Source: Bacteroidales bacterium (GTDB taxonomy: Bacteria > Bacteroidota > Bacteroidia > Bacteroidales > UBA1715). Taken from it: DNA of 36,548 nt. The notes under the pieces are model-generated. The model searched no databases. It saw only the letters and a program-made list of their open reading frames with translations, and was not told where the DNA came from. The position numbers were made by a program, and so were the translations under genes. The stretch lies in assembly GCA_027858745.1 (NCBI GenBank), contig JAQICB010000125.1, positions 1 through 36,548 of the forward strand. The letters are read 5' to 3'. Positions 418 to 31,256 of the stretch are shown in pieces; within the stretch, counting starts at the first letter, position 1; every line of letters starts with the position of its first letter.

Positions 418-1455
418 TCACCGTCCCCAATCAGTATCCTTCACCCAATCTACAATAAACTTTGCTTTTACATCAGATAATCCGGGCATAAATCCGTGAC
501 CGAGATTGAAAATCCAGTTTTGGTTGGTTCTTCCGAATGCTTTATACGATTCGAGAGTTTTACATATATCATCTTCTGATGCATATAAAAGGCGGGGGTC
601 GATATTTCCTTGTATGCCAATTTCGGGATGTAATAATCTTCGGGCTTCATCTAAGGGTGTTTGCCAATCAATACTCACAAAATCGCCATGCTCGGGGGTC
701 AGCTCTTGTAAGCCGATACCAATTCCTTTCGGGAAAAAGACAAAAGGCATATGTTCTTCACGTGCCTTGCGAACCATGCGTGATACATGAGGTAAGACTA
801 ATTTTTTATACAGATTAAAGGGAATAAGTCCGGCATGTGTGTCGAATAGTTGAAACATATCAATATTGTGGTCTGTTTGTGCCGACATATATTCTATTGA
901 GATGTCTGTAATAATCTGAAGTAAGCGATCAGTTTCCTTCGGATGTTGATAGATAAACTGTATTGCATCAGGAAAATCTGCTTTTTTATGAAAGCCTTGC
1001 AGCATGTAGAGTAAGACCGTAAAAGGAGACCCGCAAAAACCGATTAATGCAGTATTGTCATCTTTTTTTTCTTGAATTGCGTCAATAACATTATAAATAT
1101 ACTGCAATTTCTCTGTATCGGCTTTAAGTAATGATGAAGGTGAATTCGTTGAAAGCAGTGATTTTGAAAATTCAGGACCAGAATCGGGGAATTGCACATC
1201 CAGTCCTAAAGCCTGAGGAATTACTAAAATGTCTGAAAACATAATTGCTGCATCAACGCCTAAGTCTTCAATAGGCATAAGTGTAACATCCGCAGCAAGT
1301 TGCGGATCACGCATGAGTTCTCGAAAAGAATATGATTCTTTTAATGCACGATACCGCGGTAAAATTCGTCCCGCCTGTCGCATAAACCACACCGGAGGGC
1401 GTTCTGTTGCTTCGCCGCGAAGTGTGCGTTTGAGTATATTATCATTATTTGTCAT
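418..1455 (-). CDS. hemE: Uroporphyrinogen decarboxylase
   Basis: This cytoplasmic enzyme decarboxylates the four acetate side chains of uroporphyrinogen III to give coproporphyrinogen III in heme synthesis. The 345-residue length is normal for the family. The N-terminal signature PVWFMRQAGR (residues 21-30) supplies the arginines that bind substrate carboxylates. The conserved GFCGSPFTVLLYML, GIQGNIDPR and GHGFMPG segments follow. It is the last gene of a minus-strand run hemB-hemL-hemE. Its ATG overlaps the end of hemL by 11 nt, which suggests translational coupling. No intrinsic terminator is obvious after the stop. The identification is secure. Confidence 0.96.
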   Translation of the reverse strand: MTNNDNILKRTLRGEATERPPVWFMRQAGRILPRYRALKESYSFRELMRDPQLAADVTLMPIEDLGVDAAIMFSDILVIPQALGLDVQFPDSGPEFSKSLLSTNSPSSLLKADTEKLQYIYNVIDAIQEKKDDNTALIGFCGSPFTVLLYMLQGFHKKADFPDAIQFIYQHPKETDRLLQIITDISIEYMSAQTDHNIDMFQLFDTHAGLIPFNLYKKLVLPHVSRMVRKAREEHMPFVFFPKGIGIGLQELTPEHGDFVSIDWQTPLDEARRLLHPEIGIQGNIDPRLLYASEDDICKTLESYKAFGRTNQNWIFNLGHGFMPGLSDVKAKFIVDWVKDTDWGR

Positions 1456-2758
1456 ATAATTCTTGTTTTACTGATTGTAAAGCAACTTTATGAGCAGAAA
1501 TGGTTTTTTCAATATCTTCAGGAGAATGAGCTAATCCGAGGAATGCCGCTTCGTATTGTGAGGGAGCGTAATAGATTCCCTCATGTAATGAAGTCCTGAA
1601 AAAGTGCATATACGCATCAATATTGCATGTCGATACGTCCGTAAAGGAATTCACGGCGGGATGATCGGTGAAAAATTGCGTAAACATAGAACCAACACGG
1701 TTAAACACAATAGGAATACCGACCGCTGAAATATTTTCACGAATGCCGGCTTCGAGTATTTCAGCAGATTTTTCGAGTTGCTCGTACCATTCAGGATGAG
1801 TATTAAGTAGGTGTAGAGTGGTGTACCCAACAGCCATGGCAAGCGGGTTCCCCGAAAGTGTACCCGCTTGATACACCGGCCCCTTAGGAGCCAAATGTTC
1901 CATTATTTCTTTTTTTCCGCCGTATGCACCTACCGGCATACCGCCGCCGATAATTTTCCCGAAACAGGTTAAGTCAGGGGTAATATTAAATCGTTTTTGA
2001 GCACCGCCCGAAGAGAGACGAAATCCGGTCATTACCTCATCAAAAATAAGAAGAGCACCATACTGTGCACATAATTTTTGAACTGCTTCTAAAAAGCCGT
2101 TTTGTGGCACAATCACCCCCATATTTCCGGTTACCGGTTCTATTATCACCCCTGCAATATCTTCGGGATATTCCCGAAAAAGGGATTCAACAGATTCAAT
2201 TTCATTATATTTTGCGAGTAATGTATCTTGTGCAACACCTTCTGTTACCCCCGGTGAATTGGGATTTCCGTGCGTAAGAGCACCAGAGCCGGCCTGAATT
2301 AAAAAACTGTCGCCATGACCATGATAGCAGCCTTCAAATTTTATAATTTTATTACGTTTAGTATATCCGCGTGCGAGACGAACTGCACTCATTGTTGCTT
2401 CGGTACCTGAATTTACCATACGCACTAAATCAACAGACGGAACCATGCGGGTAACTAATTCTGCAATGCGGGTTTCTATTTCTGTTGGTGCACCAAAACT
2501 AATACCTTTGTGCATAGTTTCGTTGAGGGCAGAAAGCACCTCATCGTGTGCATGTCCCAATATTGCCGGTCCCCACGAAGCAACATAGTCAATAAATGTA
2601 TTTCCGTCAATATCAGTTATTTTAGAACCTTTAGCTGAATCAATAAATAAAGGATCAATGCCGGTGTTTTTGAATGACCGTGCCGGAGAGTTTACCCCGC
2701 CCGGAATATACTTTTGTGCTTCCGTAAAAGCCCGTGAACTGTGAGAATTGCTAATCAT
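1445..2758 (-). CDS. hemL: Glutamate-1-semialdehyde 2,1-aminomutase
   Basis: A PLP-dependent class III aminotransferase-fold enzyme that converts glutamate-1-semialdehyde into 5-aminolevulinate, so this organism makes heme precursors by the C5 (glutamyl-tRNA) route. At 437 residues it has the usual family length. Visible motifs are VNSGTEATMSAVRLAR (about residues 115-130), the YHGHGD loop (145-150), the IFDEV segment with the PLP-contacting Asp (238-242), and the Schiff-base lysine in FGKIIGGGMPVGAYGG (K268). It lies 9 nt downstream of hemB and overlaps hemE by 11 nt, so the three are very likely one transcript. Glutamyl-tRNA reductase (hemA) is not in the window. Confidence 0.96.
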   Translation of the reverse strand: MISNSHSSRAFTEAQKYIPGGVNSPARSFKNTGIDPLFIDSAKGSKITDIDGNTFIDYVASWGPAILGHAHDEVLSALNETMHKGISFGAPTEIETRIAELVTRMVPSVDLVRMVNSGTEATMSAVRLARGYTKRNKIIKFEGCYHGHGDSFLIQAGSGALTHGNPNSPGVTEGVAQDTLLAKYNEIESVESLFREYPEDIAGVIIEPVTGNMGVIVPQNGFLEAVQKLCAQYGALLIFDEVMTGFRLSSGGAQKRFNITPDLTCFGKIIGGGMPVGAYGGKKEIMEHLAPKGPVYQAGTLSGNPLAMAVGYTTLHLLNTHPEWYEQLEKSAEILEAGIRENISAVGIPIVFNRVGSMFTQFFTDHPAVNSFTDVSTCNIDAYMHFFRTSLHEGIYYAPSQYEAAFLGLAHSPEDIEKTISAHKVALQSVKQELYDK

Positions 2759-2767
2759 AAAAAAAAT

Positions 2768-3736
2768 TTATACTAATTTTGAAATAATATCTTGTGTGTG
2801 ATAACTTATTATTATATCCGCCCCTGCTCGTTTCATAGATTGGAGCATTTCCATAACCAATGATTCTTCGTCTATCCATCCTTGCAAGCCAGCAGCTTTC
2901 ACCATTGAATATTCACCACTTACGTTATATGCAGCAACAGGTACATGTACTTGTTCCTTAATCGTTTTTATCACGTCGAGGTAACTCAGTGCCGGTTTTA
3001 CCATCACAATATCAGCACCTTCGGCAATATCCAATTCCACTTCCCGGATAGCTTCGCGAACATTCGGCGGATTCATTTGATATGTTTTTCTGTCGCCAAA
3101 CTGTGGTGAACTTTGTGCTGCATCGCGAAACGGACCGTAAAATGCAGAGGCATATTTCGCCGAATATGACATAATTGGTATTTTCTCAAAATTTCGGGTA
3201 TCTAATTCTCGACGGATAGCACCAATGCGGCCATCCATCATATCACTCGGAGCAATCATATCAACTCCTGCCGAGGCTAAGGAAACGGACTGCTTCTTGA
3301 GTGTCTGTAGAGTCAAATCATTATCCACATCACCATCCACAATTGTTCCGCAATGTCCGTGAGTAGTGTATTCACAATTGCATACGTCAGCTATGACAAA
3401 TAAATTGGGTACCTGTTTCTTTATAAGTCGAATGGCGTTTTGAATGAGACCATCCTCTTCGCATGCACACAACCCGGTATCATCTTTTTTATCCGGAATG
3501 CCAAATAATATAATTGAGGTAACACCGCTTTCATACAATCGCTTACATTCGTCAATTACAGTGTCTGTTGAAAACTGAAAAATTCCCGGCATAGAGGAAA
3601 TTTCGCGGGTGATGCCCGAACCAAAATGAATAAAAACAGGCATAATCAAATCGCTACGATGCACATGATGTTCTTGCACCATATTCCGAAGCGTTGCATT
3701 GTACCGTAATCTGCGAAGACGTGTATTTGGAAACAT
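2768..3736 (-). CDS. hemB: Delta-aminolevulinic acid dehydratase (porphobilinogen synthase)
   Basis: Condenses two 5-aminolevulinate molecules into porphobilinogen. The 322-residue TIM-barrel protein keeps both active-site lysines: K194 in YSAKYASAFYG and K247 in VMVKPALSYLD. It also has the cysteine-rich metal loop CNCEYTTHGHC (C119, C121, C129), which marks the zinc-dependent subclass rather than the Asp-rich magnesium-only class. It sits directly upstream of hemL, whose product feeds it substrate. A 48-nt gap separates it from the nuclease-like gene upstream, so it may share that transcript or have a weak promoter of its own. I see no exact TANNTTTG in the gap. Confidence 0.96.
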   Translation of the reverse strand: MFPNTRLRRLRYNATLRNMVQEHHVHRSDLIMPVFIHFGSGITREISSMPGIFQFSTDTVIDECKRLYESGVTSIILFGIPDKKDDTGLCACEEDGLIQNAIRLIKKQVPNLFVIADVCNCEYTTHGHCGTIVDGDVDNDLTLQTLKKQSVSLASAGVDMIAPSDMMDGRIGAIRRELDTRNFEKIPIMSYSAKYASAFYGPFRDAAQSSPQFGDRKTYQMNPPNVREAIREVELDIAEGADIVMVKPALSYLDVIKTIKEQVHVPVAAYNVSGEYSMVKAAGLQGWIDEESLVMEMLQSMKRAGADIIISYHTQDIISKLV

Positions 3737-3784
3737 AAGGTATTATTTTTGGACTAAAATAATAAAAAAATAGAACTGAGCCGA

Positions 3785-4765
3785 TTATTTCAGCTTTTTT
3801 TGCATGCGAAACATAATTGGCAAATGGTCACTATATCCCCCGAGATAATATGAACCACGATATGTTCGTCGTGGTGCTGTTTTTCCGTTTTTGAACTCTT
3901 GCAACATAAAATCATGCGAAATGATTGAAAAATAATAGCTGTGATTTTGTGACATGGTTTCTGATATATAACAATGGTCCAATTCATTCCACACGCTTTT
4001 ATACACATATGTTCCTTCATGCAATGAATCAGTAACTTTTATTATTTTATTTTCAGAAAGACTTGAAATTAATAATTGTGGAGCATCGTTATGAGGATAA
4101 TCATTAAAATCTCCCAAAATAACAATTTGGGCATGAGGTTTATTGTCATACACCGTACTAATTGCATCTATCAATACATTCATTGCCGCAATTCGTTTGT
4201 ATTCGCTTTGAGCCGTACCGCCGTATCGAGAAGGAAAATGACACATAAATACATGTATGGTATCATTCCACTCACGTATAATACCGGTAACATGCAAAAT
4301 ATCGCGTGTTCGCAGTTGTGGCTGTTTTTTAAATCGCACCGGCAGAGCTGTATCGTGCAATACTTGAAACGTTTCCGGATTGTACGCCATTGCTACATCT
4401 ATTCCCCGACGATCCTCCGATTCGTGGTGAATAATGCTGTATCGCATTTTCGACAATACTGTTTTTCCCACCAAATCACGGAGACATTTTTTATTTTCAA
4501 TTTCAGCCACACCAATTATATCAGGCGGATTCCATTTGCCGGCAGCGATAATAACTTTTGAGAGATTGTTGAGTTTTTGGTAATATCTCCATGTATTCCA
4601 TTCTTTAGAACCTTCAGGTGTAAATTCACCGTCACGAACCTGTGGGGAATTTATAGTGTCAAACAAATTCTCGACATTATAAAAAAGTAGAGAAAAAGGA
4701 GCATTCTGTTGAGCAGAAGCACTCAGACTTAGTATGAGAAGCCAAAAAATAAGTATATTATTCAT
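3785..4765 (-). CDS. Secreted endonuclease/exonuclease/phosphatase-family protein
   Basis: The protein has the metal-dependent EEP fold (DNase I-like). Catalytic-type motifs are NVENLFDT (from residue 30), AEIEN with the metal-binding Glu (87-91), GDFND (218-222) and the C-terminal SDHLP (312-316). An N-terminal signal peptide (MNNILIFWLLILSLSASAQQ) suggests export to the periplasm or outside. The track starts the ORF at 4786. I prefer the ATG at 4765 because it begins the signal peptide cleanly and overlaps the preceding stop by only 8 nt. Substrate cannot be read from sequence: DNA, RNA and phosphoester or lipid substrates all occur in this fold. It lies between a surface lipoprotein gene and hemB on the same strand. 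Confidence 0.85.
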   Translation of the reverse strand: MNNILIFWLLILSLSASAQQNAPFSLLFYNVENLFDTINSPQVRDGEFTPEGSKEWNTWRYYQKLNNLSKVIIAAGKWNPPDIIGVAEIENKKCLRDLVGKTVLSKMRYSIIHHESEDRRGIDVAMAYNPETFQVLHDTALPVRFKKQPQLRTRDILHVTGIIREWNDTIHVFMCHFPSRYGGTAQSEYKRIAAMNVLIDAISTVYDNKPHAQIVILGDFNDYPHNDAPQLLISSLSENKIIKVTDSLHEGTYVYKSVWNELDHCYISETMSQNHSYYFSIISHDFMLQEFKNGKTAPRRTYRGSYYLGGYSDHLPIMFRMQKKLK

Positions 4766-6173
4766 TACTAAAAAATTCATATGCACCGAGGTCAGGTTTT
4801 CCGTCTTCTATGCGCGACTGTTCTCGAATATCAAGTGGTACATCGGTAGCAATTTCTATGTTGCCGGTATCTTGAGCTTGCGATAAGGTGTCGAGCGTAA
4901 AAATATCTTCATGTATATTTCGAAATAAATTTTCTGTGGCATCATATTCAAAGCTCTCAGTGAAATATTCTGCTAAATCACCGGTAATATCCTGTTTTAC
5001 CAAACAATTGGAAAACGAAACCGGTAATGACTCTTCATTGAGAGACGAGATTTCAATTTCATTTTTCATTTTGCCAACAATAATTGAATTGGCACAGGAA
5101 AAGGATTCTAACAGAAGAGAGCTTTCGGTAGATAAATTATAATTACTAATGTTTACCGACGGTACATAATTTCTGCCACTGATTGTTCCCGTATTTACAA
5201 TAGTTATATGTTTAAACGAATATGTGCCGCCTTGCAATGCCATAATGTAGTTGTTTGCCTGAGCAAGGACACAATTTGAGCTTTCGATAGATGCATTTTG
5301 TGCAAAAATAACATTCGACGACATTCGTCTGATAATAGTATTGTGCAGAGAAAGAGAAACCTGAGATTCTTCGGTACCATAAATAAGCAACCCGTTTACC
5401 CCATTTTGAATAATTGCATAATTAATAGTGTTATTTGTACTTGTTTTGGAAAAAATAATACTTCCCCATTGCCCGGGTAACATTTCAAAAGCTTGTTCTA
5501 TGCGGTTCGACGAAAATGTAACCGGTTTATCATGTGTCCCGTTTATGAGTAATGTGCCATTAATAATAAGATTGGCGTATTTATGTAAATACACCCGCAC
5601 TCCCGCCTCAATTGTGAGGGTGTCGCCTTGGTTAATTACCAACGAATCTTTTATTATGTATGGTTTCGCCGACGATAAGGTAATGCTTCCCGACGTTTCT
5701 GAACCACAATAAATAACATCTTGACCACTCACCGTAATCGGGATAAAATCGACGTTTGTATTATATGAAATAATGAGGGAATCTGTTGTTCCAACAAGAG
5801 TGTCAACCGTATTTTCATCTAATAATGCTTGTAAAAATATATAGATGCTGTCGTCTGCAGCAATGTGGATGTTCGAAAATGTTGAACTCGAAACCCCATT
5901 CACATTTAATAAAAACTCGGAACTATCAGCATGCAAAAGACGTATAGATTCAATAGAAATATCATTGGAATGCGGATTATAGATTTTTATATTACGAGTA
6001 ATACTTCCGGTTTGGGTAAAAATTGTGTCGAAAGAAATTTCAGGTTCAGAAAAATTTAATTTTTTTTCTGCTGATGTTATGATATCATCTTTTGTGCAAG
6101 AACCAAGCCCTGATAATAGGACTAAGGTTAATATAGTCAGGTGATTGTAGATTTTGAAAGAGTAGTTTGACAT
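4758..6173 (-). CDS. Lipoprotein with right-handed beta-helix domain
   Basis: A 471-residue predicted surface or periplasmic lipoprotein. The signal peptide ends in a lipobox (LGSC, lipid cysteine C26). Residues of about 40-150 look like an Ig/ASH-type beta domain (NIKIYNPHSNDISIESIRL). From about 170 the protein shows repetitive short strands typical of a parallel beta-helix, including ILINGTLLINGT-like turns and WGSIIF. It ends in DLGAYEF, a motif often seen at the end of such Bacteroidota proteins. Beta-helix proteins often bind or cleave polysaccharides, but no catalytic residues can be assigned. It is the first gene of the minus-strand run ending at hemE, and its stop overlaps the nuclease-like gene. 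Confidence 0.75.
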   Translation of the reverse strand: MSNYSFKIYNHLTILTLVLLSGLGSCTKDDIITSAEKKLNFSEPEISFDTIFTQTGSITRNIKIYNPHSNDISIESIRLLHADSSEFLLNVNGVSSSTFSNIHIAADDSIYIFLQALLDENTVDTLVGTTDSLIISYNTNVDFIPITVSGQDVIYCGSETSGSITLSSAKPYIIKDSLVINQGDTLTIEAGVRVYLHKYANLIINGTLLINGTHDKPVTFSSNRIEQAFEMLPGQWGSIIFSKTSTNNTINYAIIQNGVNGLLIYGTEESQVSLSLHNTIIRRMSSNVIFAQNASIESSNCVLAQANNYIMALQGGTYSFKHITIVNTGTISGRNYVPSVNISNYNLSTESSLLLESFSCANSIIVGKMKNEIEISSLNEESLPVSFSNCLVKQDITGDLAEYFTESFEYDATENLFRNIHEDIFTLDTLSQAQDTGNIEIATDVPLDIREQSRIEDGKPDLGAYEFFSNE

Positions 6174-6195
6174 ATGTATGGATAAAAAATTTATA

Positions 6196-6203
6196 CAAAT
6201 TTA
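6196..6203 (-). promoter_or_regulatory. Candidate -7 element upstream of beta-helix lipoprotein gene
   Basis: On the minus strand this reads TAAATTTG, an exact match to the Bacteroidota -7 consensus TANNTTTG, about 22 nt upstream of the start codon at 6173. No good -33 TTTG lies at the expected distance, so only half of the promoter signature is present. If real, it would head the lipoprotein-nuclease-hemBLE transcript. Confidence 0.4.
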
Positions 6204-6234
6204 TATAAGAATACGGTTTCTCATTCATAAATAT

Positions 6235-6266
6235 TTTGTATTTTTTCAATTAAATAAATATCTTTG
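6235..6266 (+). promoter_or_regulatory. Promoter of the SiaB-like/SiaC operon
   Basis: A full Bacteroidota-type promoter: TTTG at 6235-6238, a 20-nt spacer, then TATCTTTG at 6259-6266 (exact TANNTTTG). The predicted transcription start is near 6272, leaving a leader of about 20 nt before the GTG start at 6294. It is divergent from the minus-strand lipoprotein/heme block. Confidence 0.65.
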
Positions 6267-6293
6267 TTAGAATATAAGAAAAAATAAATAATC

Positions 6294-7409
6294 GTGGCAA
6301 GCGAAAAACTTGAAGATATAACATATAGTTTTAAATTGTTTGAGGGTATGCAGAAAGACAATCTCGGATATATTTATCGAGGTCTGTTTACTCAAAACAT
6401 TACTGATAATATTATTTCTCTTGCAGAGAATAATTTAGAAACTAGTGGTGAATCTTCAAAAATCAAAAAGAGAGTTTTTTCTATAATGGTAGAGTGCTTG
6501 CAAAATGTGACACGACACCAAACGCCGAAAGATTTACCTGTAGAAGATCCGGAACAAGCAGGAATTTTTGTGATTCAAAATCATAATCAGGCATATCAAA
6601 TAACATCAGGAAATGTTATTGAAAAAGGCTTAATTCCAGGATTACAAGGTATGCTTGAGCAAATTAACAGTTTAGAAAAAGAAGAATTAAAAGCATATTA
6701 CAAGAAAATTTTAGAAGACGGGAGTATTTCTGATAAAGGTGGTGCAGGTTTAGGGCTTATAGAAATGGCTCGAAAATCAGGTAACAAATTATTTTTTGAT
6801 TTTAAAGATTTAAGCTCGCAGCTGTCGTATTTTTATCTTCATACTGCTATTTCAAAAGATTCAGAAAACACTTTTGATTCTATAGATTTGAATAATATTA
6901 AAAATTTGCATGAAATTATTATTCAAAAAAATATCATGCTTATTTTTAATGGTTGTTTGAATCAAGATAGCCTTATTAGTTTATTGTCTATAATCGAAAG
7001 TCAATCGATTGGAGCAGTTGAGGTTAAAAAGAAATTATTTAATATTATGGTTGAAATGCTCCAAAATATTGTAAAACATGGAGTGAAAAAGGGAGATGAA
7101 TTAGGTGGCAATCCCGGAATTTTCTTTTTGTCAGAGAATAAAAATTCATATACATTAAGTACGGGAAATTATATTTCAAAAGACATGGTAAAGCCATTTT
7201 CAGAAAAATTAGATCATGTCAATTCCTTAGAGGGAGACGATTTAGACATGTTCTACACAAAACGCTTGCTGAATTTTGATATTGACAGCAGCAAAGAAGC
7301 CGGACTCGGAATCATTGATTTACGTATGAAAAGTGGCAGCAAATTGTTATATTCTTTTTCAGACATTAATGATTCTATTTCGTTTTTTTCATTACAAGTA
7401 ACTATATAA
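6294..7409 (+). CDS. Tandem SiaB-type (DUF6272) GHKL protein kinase
   Basis: The protein contains two homologous copies of the SiaB-like kinase domain, roughly residues 1-187 and 200-371. Each has an N-box-like helix (MVECLQNVTRH, N71; MVEMLQNIVKH, N258), a TSGNVIEK/STGNYISK strand and a glycine-rich lid (GGAGLGLIEMARKSG; EAGLGIIDLRMKSG). SiaB proteins are normally about 180 residues with one domain, so this is an internal duplication and fusion in which both halves look intact. SiaB phosphorylates SiaC in a partner-switch pathway, and a SiaC homologue follows 2 nt downstream. The start is GTG. The usual phosphatase (SiaA) and diguanylate cyclase (SiaD) are not in the window. Family placement is by motif recognition, not a search. 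Confidence 0.78.
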   Translation: MASEKLEDITYSFKLFEGMQKDNLGYIYRGLFTQNITDNIISLAENNLETSGESSKIKKRVFSIMVECLQNVTRHQTPKDLPVEDPEQAGIFVIQNHNQAYQITSGNVIEKGLIPGLQGMLEQINSLEKEELKAYYKKILEDGSISDKGGAGLGLIEMARKSGNKLFFDFKDLSSQLSYFYLHTAISKDSENTFDSIDLNNIKNLHEIIIQKNIMLIFNGCLNQDSLISLLSIIESQSIGAVEVKKKLFNIMVEMLQNIVKHGVKKGDELGGNPGIFFLSENKNSYTLSTGNYISKDMVKPFSEKLDHVNSLEGDDLDMFYTKRLLNFDIDSSKEAGLGIIDLRMKSGSKLLYSFSDINDSISFFSLQVTI

Positions 7410-7411
7410 CT

Positions 7412-7792
7412 ATGAGGCCATTAATTATTGAAAAAACAGATGAAACTCCGGAAATAATTTTAAATCCGGACGCGAATACCTATAAAATATCGTATCGTTC
7501 GTTGCCTGAAAATGCGAATGGCTTTTATGCTCCCGTTTTTCAGTGGCTCGAAGAGTTTGCACAATCGCCGATAGAAGATATTCAATTTGTTTTTGAATTG
7601 GAATATTTTAATACAGCGTCTGCGAAACAAATTGCGAAAATTTTACTTATTCTTGAAAAGATTTATCAAAAAACTGATTTGGAAATCGTGTGGCGATACA
7701 AAAAAGAAGATGTAGATATGATGTCGTCAGGTATTCGCTATTCTAAATTATTGGATGTTGAGTTTTCTCTTGAAGAGGTTCCTGATAATTAA
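7412..7792 (+). CDS. siaC: SiaC-family regulatory phosphoprotein (DUF1987)
   Basis: A 126-residue small cytosolic protein with the SiaC pattern: RPLIIEKTDETPEIILNP at the start, SLPENANGFYAPVFQWLEEF in the middle, then FELEYFNTASAK. Thr68 in that last motif matches in number and context the threonine phosphorylated in Pseudomonas SiaC, as I recall it. In the known system unphosphorylated SiaC binds and activates a diguanylate cyclase. It starts 2 nt after the tandem kinase gene, so the two are translationally linked and are probably kinase and substrate. The output partner in this organism is unknown. Confidence 0.85.
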   Translation: MRPLIIEKTDETPEIILNPDANTYKISYRSLPENANGFYAPVFQWLEEFAQSPIEDIQFVFELEYFNTASAKQIAKILLILEKIYQKTDLEIVWRYKKEDVDMMSSGIRYSKLLDVEFSLEEVPDN

Positions 7793-8978: not shown

Positions 8979-9377
8979 ATGGCAAAATCAAACGAAACAA
9001 ATAGTATTTCAACAAACATGATTACAAACGGTACTAAAATTACCGGCGATATATCATGTGACAGTGATATTCGTATAGAAGGAGAACTCGAAGGTAGTCT
9101 TGTCGCAAAAGGAAAATTGGTGATAGGAAATTCAGGAAGAATTAAAGGAGAAGTAACCTGTCAGAATTGCGATGTAGAAGGTGCTCTTAATGGAAAAATA
9201 ATTACGCACGAATTATTATCTCTTCGTGAAACAGCAAAAATTACCGGCGATATTTATACCAAAAAATTGGCAATTGAACCGGGAGCTATTTTCTCCGGAA
9301 CATGTTCAATGAATGATTCCATTTCTGATAATGAAATGGCAAACAAAAAAGATATTGCAGGAAAAGAAAAAAAGTAA
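8979..9377 (+). CDS. Bactofilin (polymer-forming cytoskeletal protein)
   Basis: A 132-residue bactofilin with the DUF583 right-handed beta-helix core from about residue 13 to 115. The repeating short strands are plain to see: NGTKITGDISCDSDIRIEGELEGSL, then KGKLVIGNSGRIKGEVTCQNCDVEGALNGK and further turns. Bactofilins polymerise without nucleotide and scaffold envelope or cell-shape proteins. The disordered charged tail (after about residue 115) overlaps the next gene. Bactofilin next to AtpZ is a recurrent Bacteroidota arrangement. Confidence 0.92.
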   Translation: MAKSNETNSISTNMITNGTKITGDISCDSDIRIEGELEGSLVAKGKLVIGNSGRIKGEVTCQNCDVEGALNGKIITHELLSLRETAKITGDIYTKKLAIEPGAIFSGTCSMNDSISDNEMANKKDIAGKEKK

Positions 9378-9579
9378 AAAAATAATTTTTAATGCTCTTA
9401 AATATACAAACATCGCTTTTCAGATGATTGTCGTTATTGGAGCAGGAACATATGGTGGGGTTAAATTAGATGAGTTTTTTGAGACTAATAATCAGGTGTT
9501 TACTATAATTCTATCCTTGTTTTCTGTTTTTGCTGCTATTTATATTGCTATTAAAGATTTTATTAATATTCACAAATGA
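9331..9579 (+). CDS. AtpZ/AtpI-family membrane protein
   Basis: A small protein of about 82 residues with two transmembrane segments (NIAFQMIVVIGAGTYGGVKLDEF and FTIILSLFSVFAAIYIAIKDF). The glycine-rich first helix followed by G-x-x-LDE is the AtpZ hallmark. These proteins usually accompany F-type ATP synthase and help c-ring assembly or magnesium/calcium supply. The track starts at 9313. I chose the ATG at 9331, though a TTG at 9355 is also possible. The 5' end lies inside the bactofilin gene and the 3' end overlaps the next start by 4 nt. The ATP synthase genes expected downstream are missing here. Confidence 0.8.
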   Translation: MKWQTKKILQEKKKSKKIIFNALKYTNIAFQMIVVIGAGTYGGVKLDEFFETNNQVFTIILSLFSVFAAIYIAIKDFINIHK

Positions 9580-9953
9580 AACGTTCCGGTATTATTGCAC
9601 ACAGTGTACTTACTATTATTTTGTGTGGTCTTATATCCGGGCTTTTTTATACAGATAATATAGATTTTTCTCTTTCTCTGGGTATTGGTAGCATTTTGTT
9701 TTTTTTTCTTATTCATATTGCTTCAATACTTATCATTTCTGCTTCTGAACGACACAATCCGCATAAAAAAATCATGATGACAATTATAACGCATTCCGCA
9801 AAATTTTTGCTGAGTTTGGGATATGTAGTTGTTATGTTGCTCGTGTATGCACCCAATAATTTTCAGATGGGGGTGTTTTTAGCAATACTTTATTTATGTT
9901 ATGTTTTTACAGAGATGATAGTCTTTATAATAGTGTCTCGTGCTAATCAATAA
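9576..9953 (+). CDS. Four-TM membrane protein, ATP synthase subunit I-like position
   Basis: A 125-residue hydrophobic protein with four predicted membrane helices (about residues 7-26, 32-54, 68-88, 97-120) and a short basic loop ERHNPHKKI. It overlaps the AtpZ gene by 4 nt (ATGA), so the two are co-translated. A protein of this size and topology commonly sits between atpZ and atpB in Bacteroidota and is treated as an AtpI-like or hypothetical subunit. I cannot confirm the family from sequence alone. A radical SAM gene, not atpB, follows 15 nt downstream. Confidence 0.7.
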   Translation: MKRSGIIAHSVLTIILCGLISGLFYTDNIDFSLSLGIGSILFFFLIHIASILIISASERHNPHKKIMMTIITHSAKFLLSLGYVVVMLLVYAPNNFQMGVFLAILYLCYVFTEMIVFIIVSRANQ

Positions 9954-9968
9954 AAAATAATAGTTAAT

Positions 9969-10982
9969 ATGAGTAACATTTCATATACTTTTTGGTACGG
10001 TTTGGCTTTTGTACGTTCACTTTCGCTCGCTCGAATACGAAATATAATACATCTGCAAATTACTTTTATTCTGTCTCGGGTGTTTAAAAAATATATTTTT
10101 TCGTCATTTCCTTCTTCCGTGAGTATTGAACCGACCAATACCTGTAATTTACAGTGTCCGGAATGCCCTACCGGAAACAAAACCTCACCCATTCCCAAAG
10201 GGAATATGAGGATAGAAACTTTTGAACGTATTATTGCAGAAATACAGAAGCATACTTTTTTTATTAATTTATATTTTCAGGGCGAACCATTTTTGCATCC
10301 TGATATGTGTTTGTTTATTTCTCGTGCTCATAAACAGTGTATGATGACTTCAACATCTACCAATGCTCATTACATTACCGAAAAAAATGCTGAAGATATT
10401 GTTCGTTCCGGTTTGACTCATATTATTGTTTCATTAGACGGCTTCGATCAGCAATCGTATGAGGTGTATCGAAAAAAGGGAGATTTTAATGCGGTTACAT
10501 CCGGTTTGCAAGCCTTGTCGTTTGCAAAAAAGAAATTGAAAAGCAAGTATCCTCTTATAGAAGTGCAGTGTTTGTTATTTAAACATACAGAGCAGTATGG
10601 GAATACTTTAAAACAGATAGCACATTCTCATGGAGCCGATAGGGTTGTGTTTAAAACCGCTCAATTTTATTCTGCTGAAAATATGTATATGATGCCTGTT
10701 CAAAAAAATAATAGTCGCTATATATATAATCAGGAAAACCAAACGTTAGAATTACGAAAAAAACCTAATAATAAGTGTTGGAGAATGTGGAGCTCTGTTG
10801 TGTTTACGTGGGATGGAATCGTTCTTCCTTGTTGTTTTGACAAGTATAATTCTTATGCATATGGCACAATTGAGCAATCTTCTTTACAGTCAATTCTTAC
10901 TTCGAAAAATGCACGTACTTTTAAGCGACAAGTCCATACAAATCGTACCGTTTTTTCGATATGTAGGAATTGCACATCATAA
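9969..10982 (+). CDS. Radical SAM protein with SPASM domain
   Basis: A 337-residue radical SAM enzyme. The [4Fe-4S] SAM-binding motif is C59-NLQ-C63-PE-C66, preceded by SIEPTNTC as in the MoaA/SPASM group. YFQGEPFLHPDM and IVSLDGFDQQSYEVYRKKG are further barrel strands. The C-terminal region has CWRMW, DGIVLPCC and CRNC, the cysteine set of a SPASM auxiliary cluster; the protein ends two residues after the last cysteine. Residues 1-45 are basic and moderately hydrophobic and could sit at the membrane. The substrate is unknown. Proteins of this subgroup often lie in polysaccharide or lipid modification loci, and here an exopolysaccharide priming transferase follows. Confidence 0.88.
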   Translation: MSNISYTFWYGLAFVRSLSLARIRNIIHLQITFILSRVFKKYIFSSFPSSVSIEPTNTCNLQCPECPTGNKTSPIPKGNMRIETFERIIAEIQKHTFFINLYFQGEPFLHPDMCLFISRAHKQCMMTSTSTNAHYITEKNAEDIVRSGLTHIIVSLDGFDQQSYEVYRKKGDFNAVTSGLQALSFAKKKLKSKYPLIEVQCLLFKHTEQYGNTLKQIAHSHGADRVVFKTAQFYSAENMYMMPVQKNNSRYIYNQENQTLELRKKPNNKCWRMWSSVVFTWDGIVLPCCFDKYNSYAYGTIEQSSLQSILTSKNARTFKRQVHTNRTVFSICRNCTS

Positions 10983-30057: not shown

Positions 30058-30891
30058 TTATGCAACATTTAATTGATTAATAAATAATTGTTCAAATTCT
30101 AAAATTGTTTTGTAACCAATAGCAGAGTGTCTTCTATTCCTATTATACCAAGTTTCTATATATTCAAAAATTGAAAGTGTGGCATCTTTTCTAGTAAGAT
30201 ACTTGTTTTTATACACCCATTCTATTTTTAAGCTTTTAAAGAAACTCTCAGCAACCGCATTATCCCAACAGTTACCTTTTCTACTCATACTTTGTTGTAT
30301 TAGTCCATTATAATTGTTTAACAAGTCTGTAAATGCACTACAGGCATATTGTATGCCTCTGTCTGAATGAAAAATAAGCTCTTTGGATATTTCATTGTTT
30401 TTAACAGCCATTTTCCATGCAGCAATACTTGTATTGTAAGCACTCATGTCTGAACTCATAGACCAACCAACAATTTTACGATTAAATAGATCAATAATTA
30501 CAGTTAAATAAAGCCATCCTTGATTAGTTCTAATATAAGTAATGTCTGATACCCACACTTGATTTGCCCTTTCTACATGAAAATTTCTATTCAGTAAATT
30601 TGGTGCAACCGGATAGTTATGCTTCGAATCGGTCGTTAATTTAAATTTCCGAGGTTTTCGAGCCATTATTCCTACATTACTCATTATTCTAGCTACACGT
30701 GGACGAGAAACGGTATATCCTAATTCTATGAGTTCTTTTGTCATCCGCGGAGAACCATATGTATTATGACTTGCTTTAAATATATCCTTTATTTGCATTA
30801 ACAATACTTCATTTTCTAACCATCTCTTTGACGATTTAGCCTTTAACCATTGGTAATAGCCACTTTTACTTACTTTAAATACTTCACACAT
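30058..30891 (-). CDS. IS3-family transposase OrfB (DDE integrase domain)
   Basis: The catalytic part of the transposase. The track gives 277 residues from its first ATG, but the reading frame is open further upstream to the slippery site near 30972, where it continues OrfA as a fusion (QEIFRFIKQHKKAFPVEKMCEVFKVSKSGYY). The rve integrase core has the DDE triad D116 (WVSDITYI), D177 (FHSDRGIQY) and E215 (AVAESFFKS). The HTH_21-type region SHNTYGSPRMTKEL precedes it. The stop codon lies inside the left inverted end. The functional transposase is most likely the OrfAB fusion. Confidence 0.93.
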   Translation of the reverse strand: MCEVFKVSKSGYYQWLKAKSSKRWLENEVLLMQIKDIFKASHNTYGSPRMTKELIELGYTVSRPRVARIMSNVGIMARKPRKFKLTTDSKHNYPVAPNLLNRNFHVERANQVWVSDITYIRTNQGWLYLTVIIDLFNRKIVGWSMSSDMSAYNTSIAAWKMAVKNNEISKELIFHSDRGIQYACSAFTDLLNNYNGLIQQSMSRKGNCWDNAVAESFFKSLKIEWVYKNKYLTRKDATLSIFEYIETWYNRNRRHSAIGYKTILEFEQLFINQLNVA

Positions 30892-30923
30892 CTTCTCAAC
30901 AGGAAATGCTTTTTTATGTTGTT

Positions 30924-31256
30924 TTATAAACCTAAAGATTTCTTGTCGCTCGTGGAGAAGATGCTGATTGCCTTTTTTAATATGTCACGTTCTAACTGAG
31001 CATCTTTAAGCTCTTTTTTTAATCGTGTTATTTCTCTTTCTTTATCTGTCATTTTTGGAGTTCCTCTTCCTGGAAAACAGTTGTGCTTATATGACTCATA
31101 TTCTTTACGCCATCTGTACAACATGTTCTCATGAACACCTAATTCTTCGGCAATTTCCGATACACTTCCTCGTGCATAACTCAGCTCAACAGCTTTTTGT
31201 TTAAATTCTGAGTCGTACGTTTTTCGTTTTGTCATTTTTCTGTCTTTTTTAAGCAA
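30924..31256 (-). CDS. IS3-family transposase OrfA (helix-turn-helix)
   Basis: A 110-residue DNA-binding protein with the IS3 OrfA pattern: TYDSEFKQKAVELSYARGSVSEIAEELGVHENMLYRWRKEYES, an HTH_Tnp_1 domain, then a leucine-zipper-like helix (KEREITRLKKELKDAQLERDILKKAISIFS) for dimerisation. It overlaps the extended OrfB frame. The first start gives an MLKKDRKM lead; the later M at residue 8 (MTKRKTYDSEF) is equally plausible. Confidence 0.92.
   Translation of the reverse strand: MLKKDRKMTKRKTYDSEFKQKAVELSYARGSVSEIAEELGVHENMLYRWRKEYESYKHNCFPGRGTPKMTDKEREITRLKKELKDAQLERDILKKAISIFSTSDKKSLGL
30972..30978 (-). promoter_or_regulatory. Programmed -1 frameshift site of the IS (A6G)
   Basis: On the minus strand the sequence reads TT-AAAAAAG-GC. 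In the OrfA frame the A AAA AAG heptamer codes for LKK. A -1 slip continues as GNQHLLHERQEIFRFIKQ into OrfB, which matches the expected N-terminal extension of IS3 OrfB. A-AAA-AAG is a well-known slippery heptamer of this family. Confidence 0.75.

Follow-up and report, generated by a model that had tools for sequence, protein, structure and literature searches.

What becomes of a SiaB kinase when two copies of its domain are joined in one chain, and what would such a kinase control in a genome that encodes neither SiaA nor SiaD beside it? In Pseudomonas aeruginosa, SiaB is established as a dimer that phosphorylates SiaC on Thr68 and is antagonized by SiaA; SiaD is switched on by the unphosphorylated form of SiaC (PMC7278518; PMC7647112). 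The question is raised by a gene pair in the window analyzed here, a 36,548-nt contig (36.5 kb; C49) from the 2.9 Mb draft assembly of a Bacteroidales bacterium (169 contigs, 98% complete). Based on the letters alone, an earlier note had described the first gene product as two SiaB-type GHKL domains in a single chain, followed directly by a SiaC partner.

Profile searches bear this description out. Pfam DUF6272 (PF19788) matches the kinase ORF twice (E 6.6e-72, 239.9 bits against a cut-off of 26.6), and a Pfam scan of the tandem at E up to 1 returned nothing besides this family. The whole protein scores 261.5 bits against the NCBIfam SiaB-family kinase profile NF038262, and each half alone exceeds the cut-off of 85 (154.7 bits for residues 1-189 and 115.2 bits for the second half). 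The adjoining protein matches the SiaC family PF09345 (E 2.3e-31, 108.4 bits, cut-off 24.5), and the start and phosphosite that had been proposed for it are both confirmed (Table 1). Against the P. aeruginosa-type equivalogs, the tandem scores 125.6 bits (NF038264, cut-off 225) and SiaC 58.3 bits (NF038265, cut-off 150), both below the cut-offs. The only convincing solved structures by sequence are the P. aeruginosa SiaB–SiaC complex (6KKO) and SiaC. An AlphaFold2 (AF2) model of the tandem, built from 49 sequences (pLDDT 83, pTM 0.80), has the SiaB chains of 6KKO as its top Foldseek matches (TM 0.82-0.84 by target). By homology, the window protein would be a covalent version of the Pseudomonas SiaB dimer. 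Its N-half contains every SiaB motif (the N-box Glu and Asn, the GN motif and the glycine lid), and the C-half contains all of them except the first two lid glycines. The N-box and lid motifs quoted earlier for both halves are thus present as given, but the lids differ, reading GGAGLG in the N-half and KEAGLG in the C-half.

Table 1 Coordinates of the SiaB–SiaC pair, its surroundings and features of related loci
Feature	Location	Coordinates	Strand	Remarks
Tandem SiaB-type kinase, two DUF6272/GHKL domains	Window	6294..7409	+	371 aa, GTG start; profile matches, AF2 model, Foldseek
N-half SiaB domain, residues 13-186	Window	6330..6851	+	E67/N71 N-box, TSGN motif with N107, canonical lid GGAGLG 149-154
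C-half SiaB domain, residues 201-371	Window	6894..7406	+	E254/N258 N-box and N292 retained, lid KEAGLG 334-339 (first two Gly gone)
SiaC (PF09345), 126 aa	Window	7412..7792	+	ATG start 2 nt past kinase stop; Thr68 in YFNTASAK
Bacteroidota-type promoter-like motif TTTG-N20-TATCTTTG	Window	6235..6266	+	Pattern scan; ahead of both genes
Bactofilin gene, then two small membrane-protein-like ORFs	Window	8979-9953		Close to the SiaB/SiaC pair
IS-like pair, rve/HTH_21 transposase and small upstream ORF	Window	30058-31256	-	IS3-like by domain content
SiaB-SiaC fusion, then free SiaC	L034 (own genome, C115)	9476-10799		Fusion of 291 aa, phosphosite Ser
Exporter, lipoprotein and secreted gene	L146 (own genome, C124)	1432-5990		No adjoining SiaB/SiaC
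SiaB domain C-terminal in 639-aa ORF	L048 (G047:C34)	5132-7051		722-aa open frame
Two tandem SiaB genes in series	L050	7491-9738		
Two tandem SiaB genes in series	L094	7938-10202		
Two tandem SiaB genes in series	L101	7938-10204		
Single-SiaB exporter operon, example	L134	810-8969		
Single-SiaB exporter operon, further examples	L135, L136, L137			
Proteins following SiaB-SiaB-SiaC fusions	L084, L087, L091, L111, L115, L130			

The earlier note had also credited SiaC with a full promoter. A promoter-like motif, TTTG-N20-TATCTTTG, was indeed found, but it stands ahead of the kinase gene, and with a gap of only 2 nt between the genes it is presumably common to both. The same box occurs in the nearest relative, the genus-mate L054, and a complete motif of this kind lies within 200 nt upstream of 9 of 91 tandem genes, compared with 1.4 expected from mononucleotide shuffles. 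Beside the pair, the window's family retains a divergent lipoprotein gene and an endonuclease gene, with a polyprenyl synthase gene in three genera. A conserved output gene adjoining the pair was sought in this family and none emerged; the neighbors that are kept look housekeeping. The bactofilin gene near the pair has a counterpart of sorts at L154, where a bactofilin-like ORF lies near a SiaB-SiaC fusion, and the window also carries an IS-like pair.

How widespread is the two-domain form? Of 60 related genomes in our close sample, 34 encode DUF6272, and most of these carry at least one two-domain ORF of about 370-400 codons. Within the window's own family, such an ORF is present in all 14 genomes (its own and 13 relatives). 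A search of GTDB species genomes, for which GGAGLG (as GGAGLGLI) was one of two patterns, gave 488 relatives, from which 80 loci were kept, all in Bacteroidota, going by their record titles, except one labeled Chlorobi. Sorting the ORFs of these and other loci yielded 78 two-domain proteins and 13 SiaB-SiaB-SiaC triple fusions in addition to single-domain forms; one locus was counted in two rows, and the 91 tandem rows correspond to 90 distinct tandems. Across the phylum, only 9 of 148 sampled genomes match at all, and a full-length tandem occurs in the window's genome and one other. The tandem form is therefore common in the order and rare across the phylum, and its frequency within the order rules out a rare oddity. 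Pseudomonas fits the view of known SiaB as a single-domain protein; in this order, by contrast, the two-domain form is widespread. The genome survey that the earlier note had proposed thus finds two-domain versions to be common (80 further loci), and the literature that we searched contains no description of two-domain SiaB, nor of any SiaB or SiaC protein of Bacteroidota; one publication notes DUF1987 as widespread.

Several unusual arrangements accompany the common form. At three loci, two tandem SiaB genes lie in series and give four kinase domains per operon. In L048, a SiaB domain forms the C-terminal part of a long ORF with no recognized domain in its first 450 residues. A single search of viral contigs returned no relative, and a phage origin was rejected. 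That the fused gene is an assembly error or a pseudogene is refuted: the draft state of the source, with its 169 contigs, is all that speaks for such an artefact, while open two-domain frames are found in all 13 same-family relatives and on 80 further contigs, and the same neighbors recur in most of the family.

To trace the origin of the two halves, we built a tree of 91 domains, in which P. aeruginosa SiaB was entered only as the stretch matched in the solved-structure search. All N-halves fall on one side of a branch with SH-aLRT support of 95, all C-halves on one side of another with support of 90, and single-domain SiaB proteins stand apart from both groups. Because the N- and C-halves occupy separate branches, the halves diverged before the species did, with one old fusion as their source; the tree, together with an identity of only 32% between the halves, rules out a recent duplication. 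For the same protein pairs, the C-halves are the more divergent in 97% of comparisons (mean path 2.30 vs 1.61 for N-halves), corresponding to evolution about 1.4 times faster, and they lie farther from canonical single SiaBs (3.33 vs 2.50).

The asymmetry extends to the lid. GGAGLG is present in 91 of 91 N-halves, a constancy that is partly ascertained because the motif was a search pattern; the halves differ in the same way in tandems that were retrieved by profile only. Nearly every C-half lacks the first two glycines, which are mostly replaced by Lys-Glu or Lys-Lys, and the following GxG is retained in 81 of 91 and lost in 10 (variants include DLS, NLG, CFG and PLG). The N-box Glu and Asn are 99-100% conserved in both halves alike. 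The two halves are not equivalent, and their asymmetry in lid sequence and in rate is old.

The tandem kinase is tightly linked to SiaC. Of 78 tandem genes, 61 have a co-oriented SiaC gene directly downstream, within 20 nt in 54 of these, and 13 more tandems carry SiaC fused at the C terminus, so that SiaC is adjacent or fused in 74 of 91. Among the 61 linked SiaCs, 52 have Thr and 9 have Ser at the phosphosite. In the SiaC tree, proteins from tandem loci are split from those of single-SiaB loci with a branch support of 96, and a repeat with 62 rows gave the same split (support 95/82). SiaB and SiaC also share an identical distribution: of the 60 genomes, the 34 with SiaB are precisely those with SiaC. 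In the window's genome, SiaC matches outnumber SiaB genes by five to two. In the sister genus g4 (G004, G009), the tandem is the only SiaB left and the adjoining SiaC has been lost; G004 keeps two SiaCs, of which one falls in the single-type clade and the other in the tandem-type clade, and therefore one tandem kinase either serves both or leaves one unphosphorylated.

Covalent attachment of SiaC takes two forms. The triple fusions (L084, L087, L088, L090, L091 and others) share the tandem kinase clade and SiaC branch of the window pair but differ in the attached SiaC and in the predicted ion-channel protein that often comes next; a model of one (pLDDT 88, pTM 0.76) confirms the SiaB and SiaC folds. 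Separately, a shorter SiaB-SiaC fusion is encoded in the window's genome at L034, and others of this type occur in two same-family genomes (L154, L159), with a very divergent fused SiaC domain.

In P. aeruginosa, the switch is completed by SiaA and SiaD. Neither SpoIIE nor GGDEF genes are found on the 36.5 kb window contig, and the absence of a SiaA that had been remarked on thus holds for the contig; elsewhere in the genome, nine SpoIIE phosphatase genes are present. The lack of SiaD is more thorough than had been claimed, with no GGDEF protein in the 98% complete genome and none in any of the 34 SiaB/SiaC genomes (0/34), whereas the same search was positive in 8 of 14 control genomes. As a result, a diguanylate cyclase output is ruled out, and the cyclase drops out of the list of outputs (cyclase, sigma factor or other) that the earlier note had considered. 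SpoIIE genes number 2-49 in the 34 SiaB/SiaC genomes and 0-2 in the other 26. SpoIIE numbers follow those of SiaB and SiaC; within the 34, SiaB and SpoIIE numbers correlate (Spearman 0.87, with p-values to be read with caution because the species are related), and the counts may reflect general signaling richness and shared ancestry. A SpoIIE gene lies within 6 kb of the tandem in only 24 of 91 cases, and the SpoIIE proteins close to tandem genes bear TPR, propeller or YfiR-like sensor parts. In nearly all of the 34 genomes, the best SpoIIE match is a protein of about 415 aa, whose gene adjoins an efp-like gene in G000 and G004; this efp-linked phosphatase is of the GAF type.

Compared with P. 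aeruginosa SiaABCD, the window system shares the SiaB and SiaC folds and motifs, Thr68, the kinase-SiaC gene order and the presence of SpoIIE phosphatases in the genome; it differs in its two-domain kinase with unequal halves, and in having no linked SiaA and no SiaD or other GGDEF protein in the genome. The Bacteroidales single-SiaB modules, seemingly likewise undescribed, belong to the same protein families and bacterial order, but have one kinase domain, another SiaC branch, and a linked phosphatase and exporter. Similarity to RsbW/SpoIIAB with RsbV/SpoIIAA extends to the GHKL fold, the partner-switch logic and a STAS-like substrate, while the Pfam families are different and the structures match less well (TM by target about 0.5-0.7).

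Related loci offer leads on the output. Single-SiaB loci have a highly conserved gene order of sensor-SpoIIE, SiaB, SiaC, an exporter of about 1030 aa (TerB-like start, ABC ATPase and ABC-2 membrane domain), a lipoprotein-like protein and a small secreted-like protein. This operon is apparently a partner switch wired to an ABC-2 exporter, and its gene neighborhood makes the TerB-ABC-2 exporter an effector candidate for single-SiaB modules. The window's genome keeps the exporter, lipoprotein and secreted gene at a site where SiaB and SiaC do not adjoin them (L146). Members of a single cluster of proteins of about 550-665 aa come after 6 of the 13 triple fusions; the two members scanned (L084 and L087) both end in an Ion_trans_2 channel domain, making the channel protein a candidate effector of the fused switch. 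At further loci, rpoD lies near a tandem SiaB or a lone SiaC gene, on the same strand (L118, L123, L125, L127, L129, L132) or on the opposite strand (L061, L064, L082, L086, L092, L093, L099, L100), and L158 also belongs to this set. These rpoD-linked loci often include degQ, dapF or uvrB, and the proximity may reflect either ancient synteny or a connection in function. None of the exporter, channel and rpoD arrangements applies to the window neighborhood.

Taken together, we consider it likely that the window protein is a covalent SiaB pair with a catalytic N-half and a docking or regulatory C-half, which phosphorylates SiaC in a partner switch free of c-di-GMP. In this mechanism, a single gene fusion would have fixed the SiaB dimer early in the lineage. 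The N-half, with every canonical element intact, would be the catalytic half, and the C-half, which keeps the fold, the N-box Glu/Asn and usually GLG under an altered lid, would most likely act as a partner in the dimer, dock the substrate or sense ATP. The tandem would phosphorylate SiaC proteins on Thr68 or the equivalent Thr or Ser, and the phosphate would be removed by SpoIIE-type phosphatases that bear a variety of sensor domains and are encoded at other sites in the genome. Unphosphorylated SiaC would then bind an effector other than a diguanylate cyclase.

This division of labor accounts for the asymmetry with the fewest assumptions, and two active heads are possible. GHKL anti-sigma kinases work without the first lid glycine, and since C-halves also retain the N-box Glu/Asn, the C-half may be active too. 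One head might then act on the adjacent SiaC and the other on a SiaC encoded elsewhere, each with its own substrate or input, a prospect that we regard as possible but on the unlikely side. The GN motif and GLG kept alongside the N-box in most C-halves fit such an arrangement, as do the excess of SiaC matches over SiaB genes in the window's genome and the sister genus g4, where the sole tandem faces SiaCs of two clades in G004. Yet almost no C-half retains the lid GG, 10 of 91 have lost GxG, the C-half evolves faster, and a single active half could serve several SiaCs. The opposite extreme, a dead pseudokinase C-half that is nothing but a fixed dimer partner, with the fusion a neutral ratchet that brought no new function, seems unlikely. 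It would account for C-halves in which GxG is wholly gone, and SiaB is dimeric anyway (PMC7278518), but the near-complete conservation of the C-half N-box exceeds what a mere scaffold would be expected to show.

A further alternative has the tandem or SiaC acting on a sigma factor (sigma-70/RpoD or ECF) in the manner of RsbW/RsbV. In its favor, the SiaC fold is that of anti-sigma-factor antagonists (PMC7647112). In 17 loci, no more than 7 kb separates rpoD from the tandem, in various arrangements; six of these loci have rpoD immediately upstream in the same orientation. In G050, rpoD adjoins a lone SiaC, and divergent ECF-like sigma genes adjoin the tandem in three loci. However, the rpoD loci come from few lineages (rumen Bacteroidales and Salinivirgaceae-like genomes), and a shared old uvrB-rpoD-degQ-dapF neighborhood, absent from the window and its family, may explain them. 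In addition, the tandem matches no Pfam family except DUF6272, and in Pseudomonas, SiaB and the effector do not bind each other (PMC7278518). We consider a sigma-factor switch improbable.

The window pair is a real, old, order-wide variant of the SiaB/SiaC switch, undescribed in the literature searched, that would operate without c-di-GMP. A bolder and, in our estimate, rather doubtful extension would see a network in which an asymmetric two-headed hub kinase serves several SiaCs of two branches, each head having its own substrate, with many sensor-SpoIIEs as inputs and exporters or channels as outputs. As far as the searched literature shows, SiaC-type switches have been characterized from a single organism, with c-di-GMP as the sole output. 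The bacteria described here lack any diguanylate cyclase and nevertheless contain this kinase and phosphoprotein, often as multiple copies accompanied by tens of phosphatases, and the kinase has turned into an asymmetric covalent pair. SiaC targets beyond the cyclase thereby become directly testable, and the triple fusions and the genus without an adjacent SiaC are natural experiments on the role of each head.
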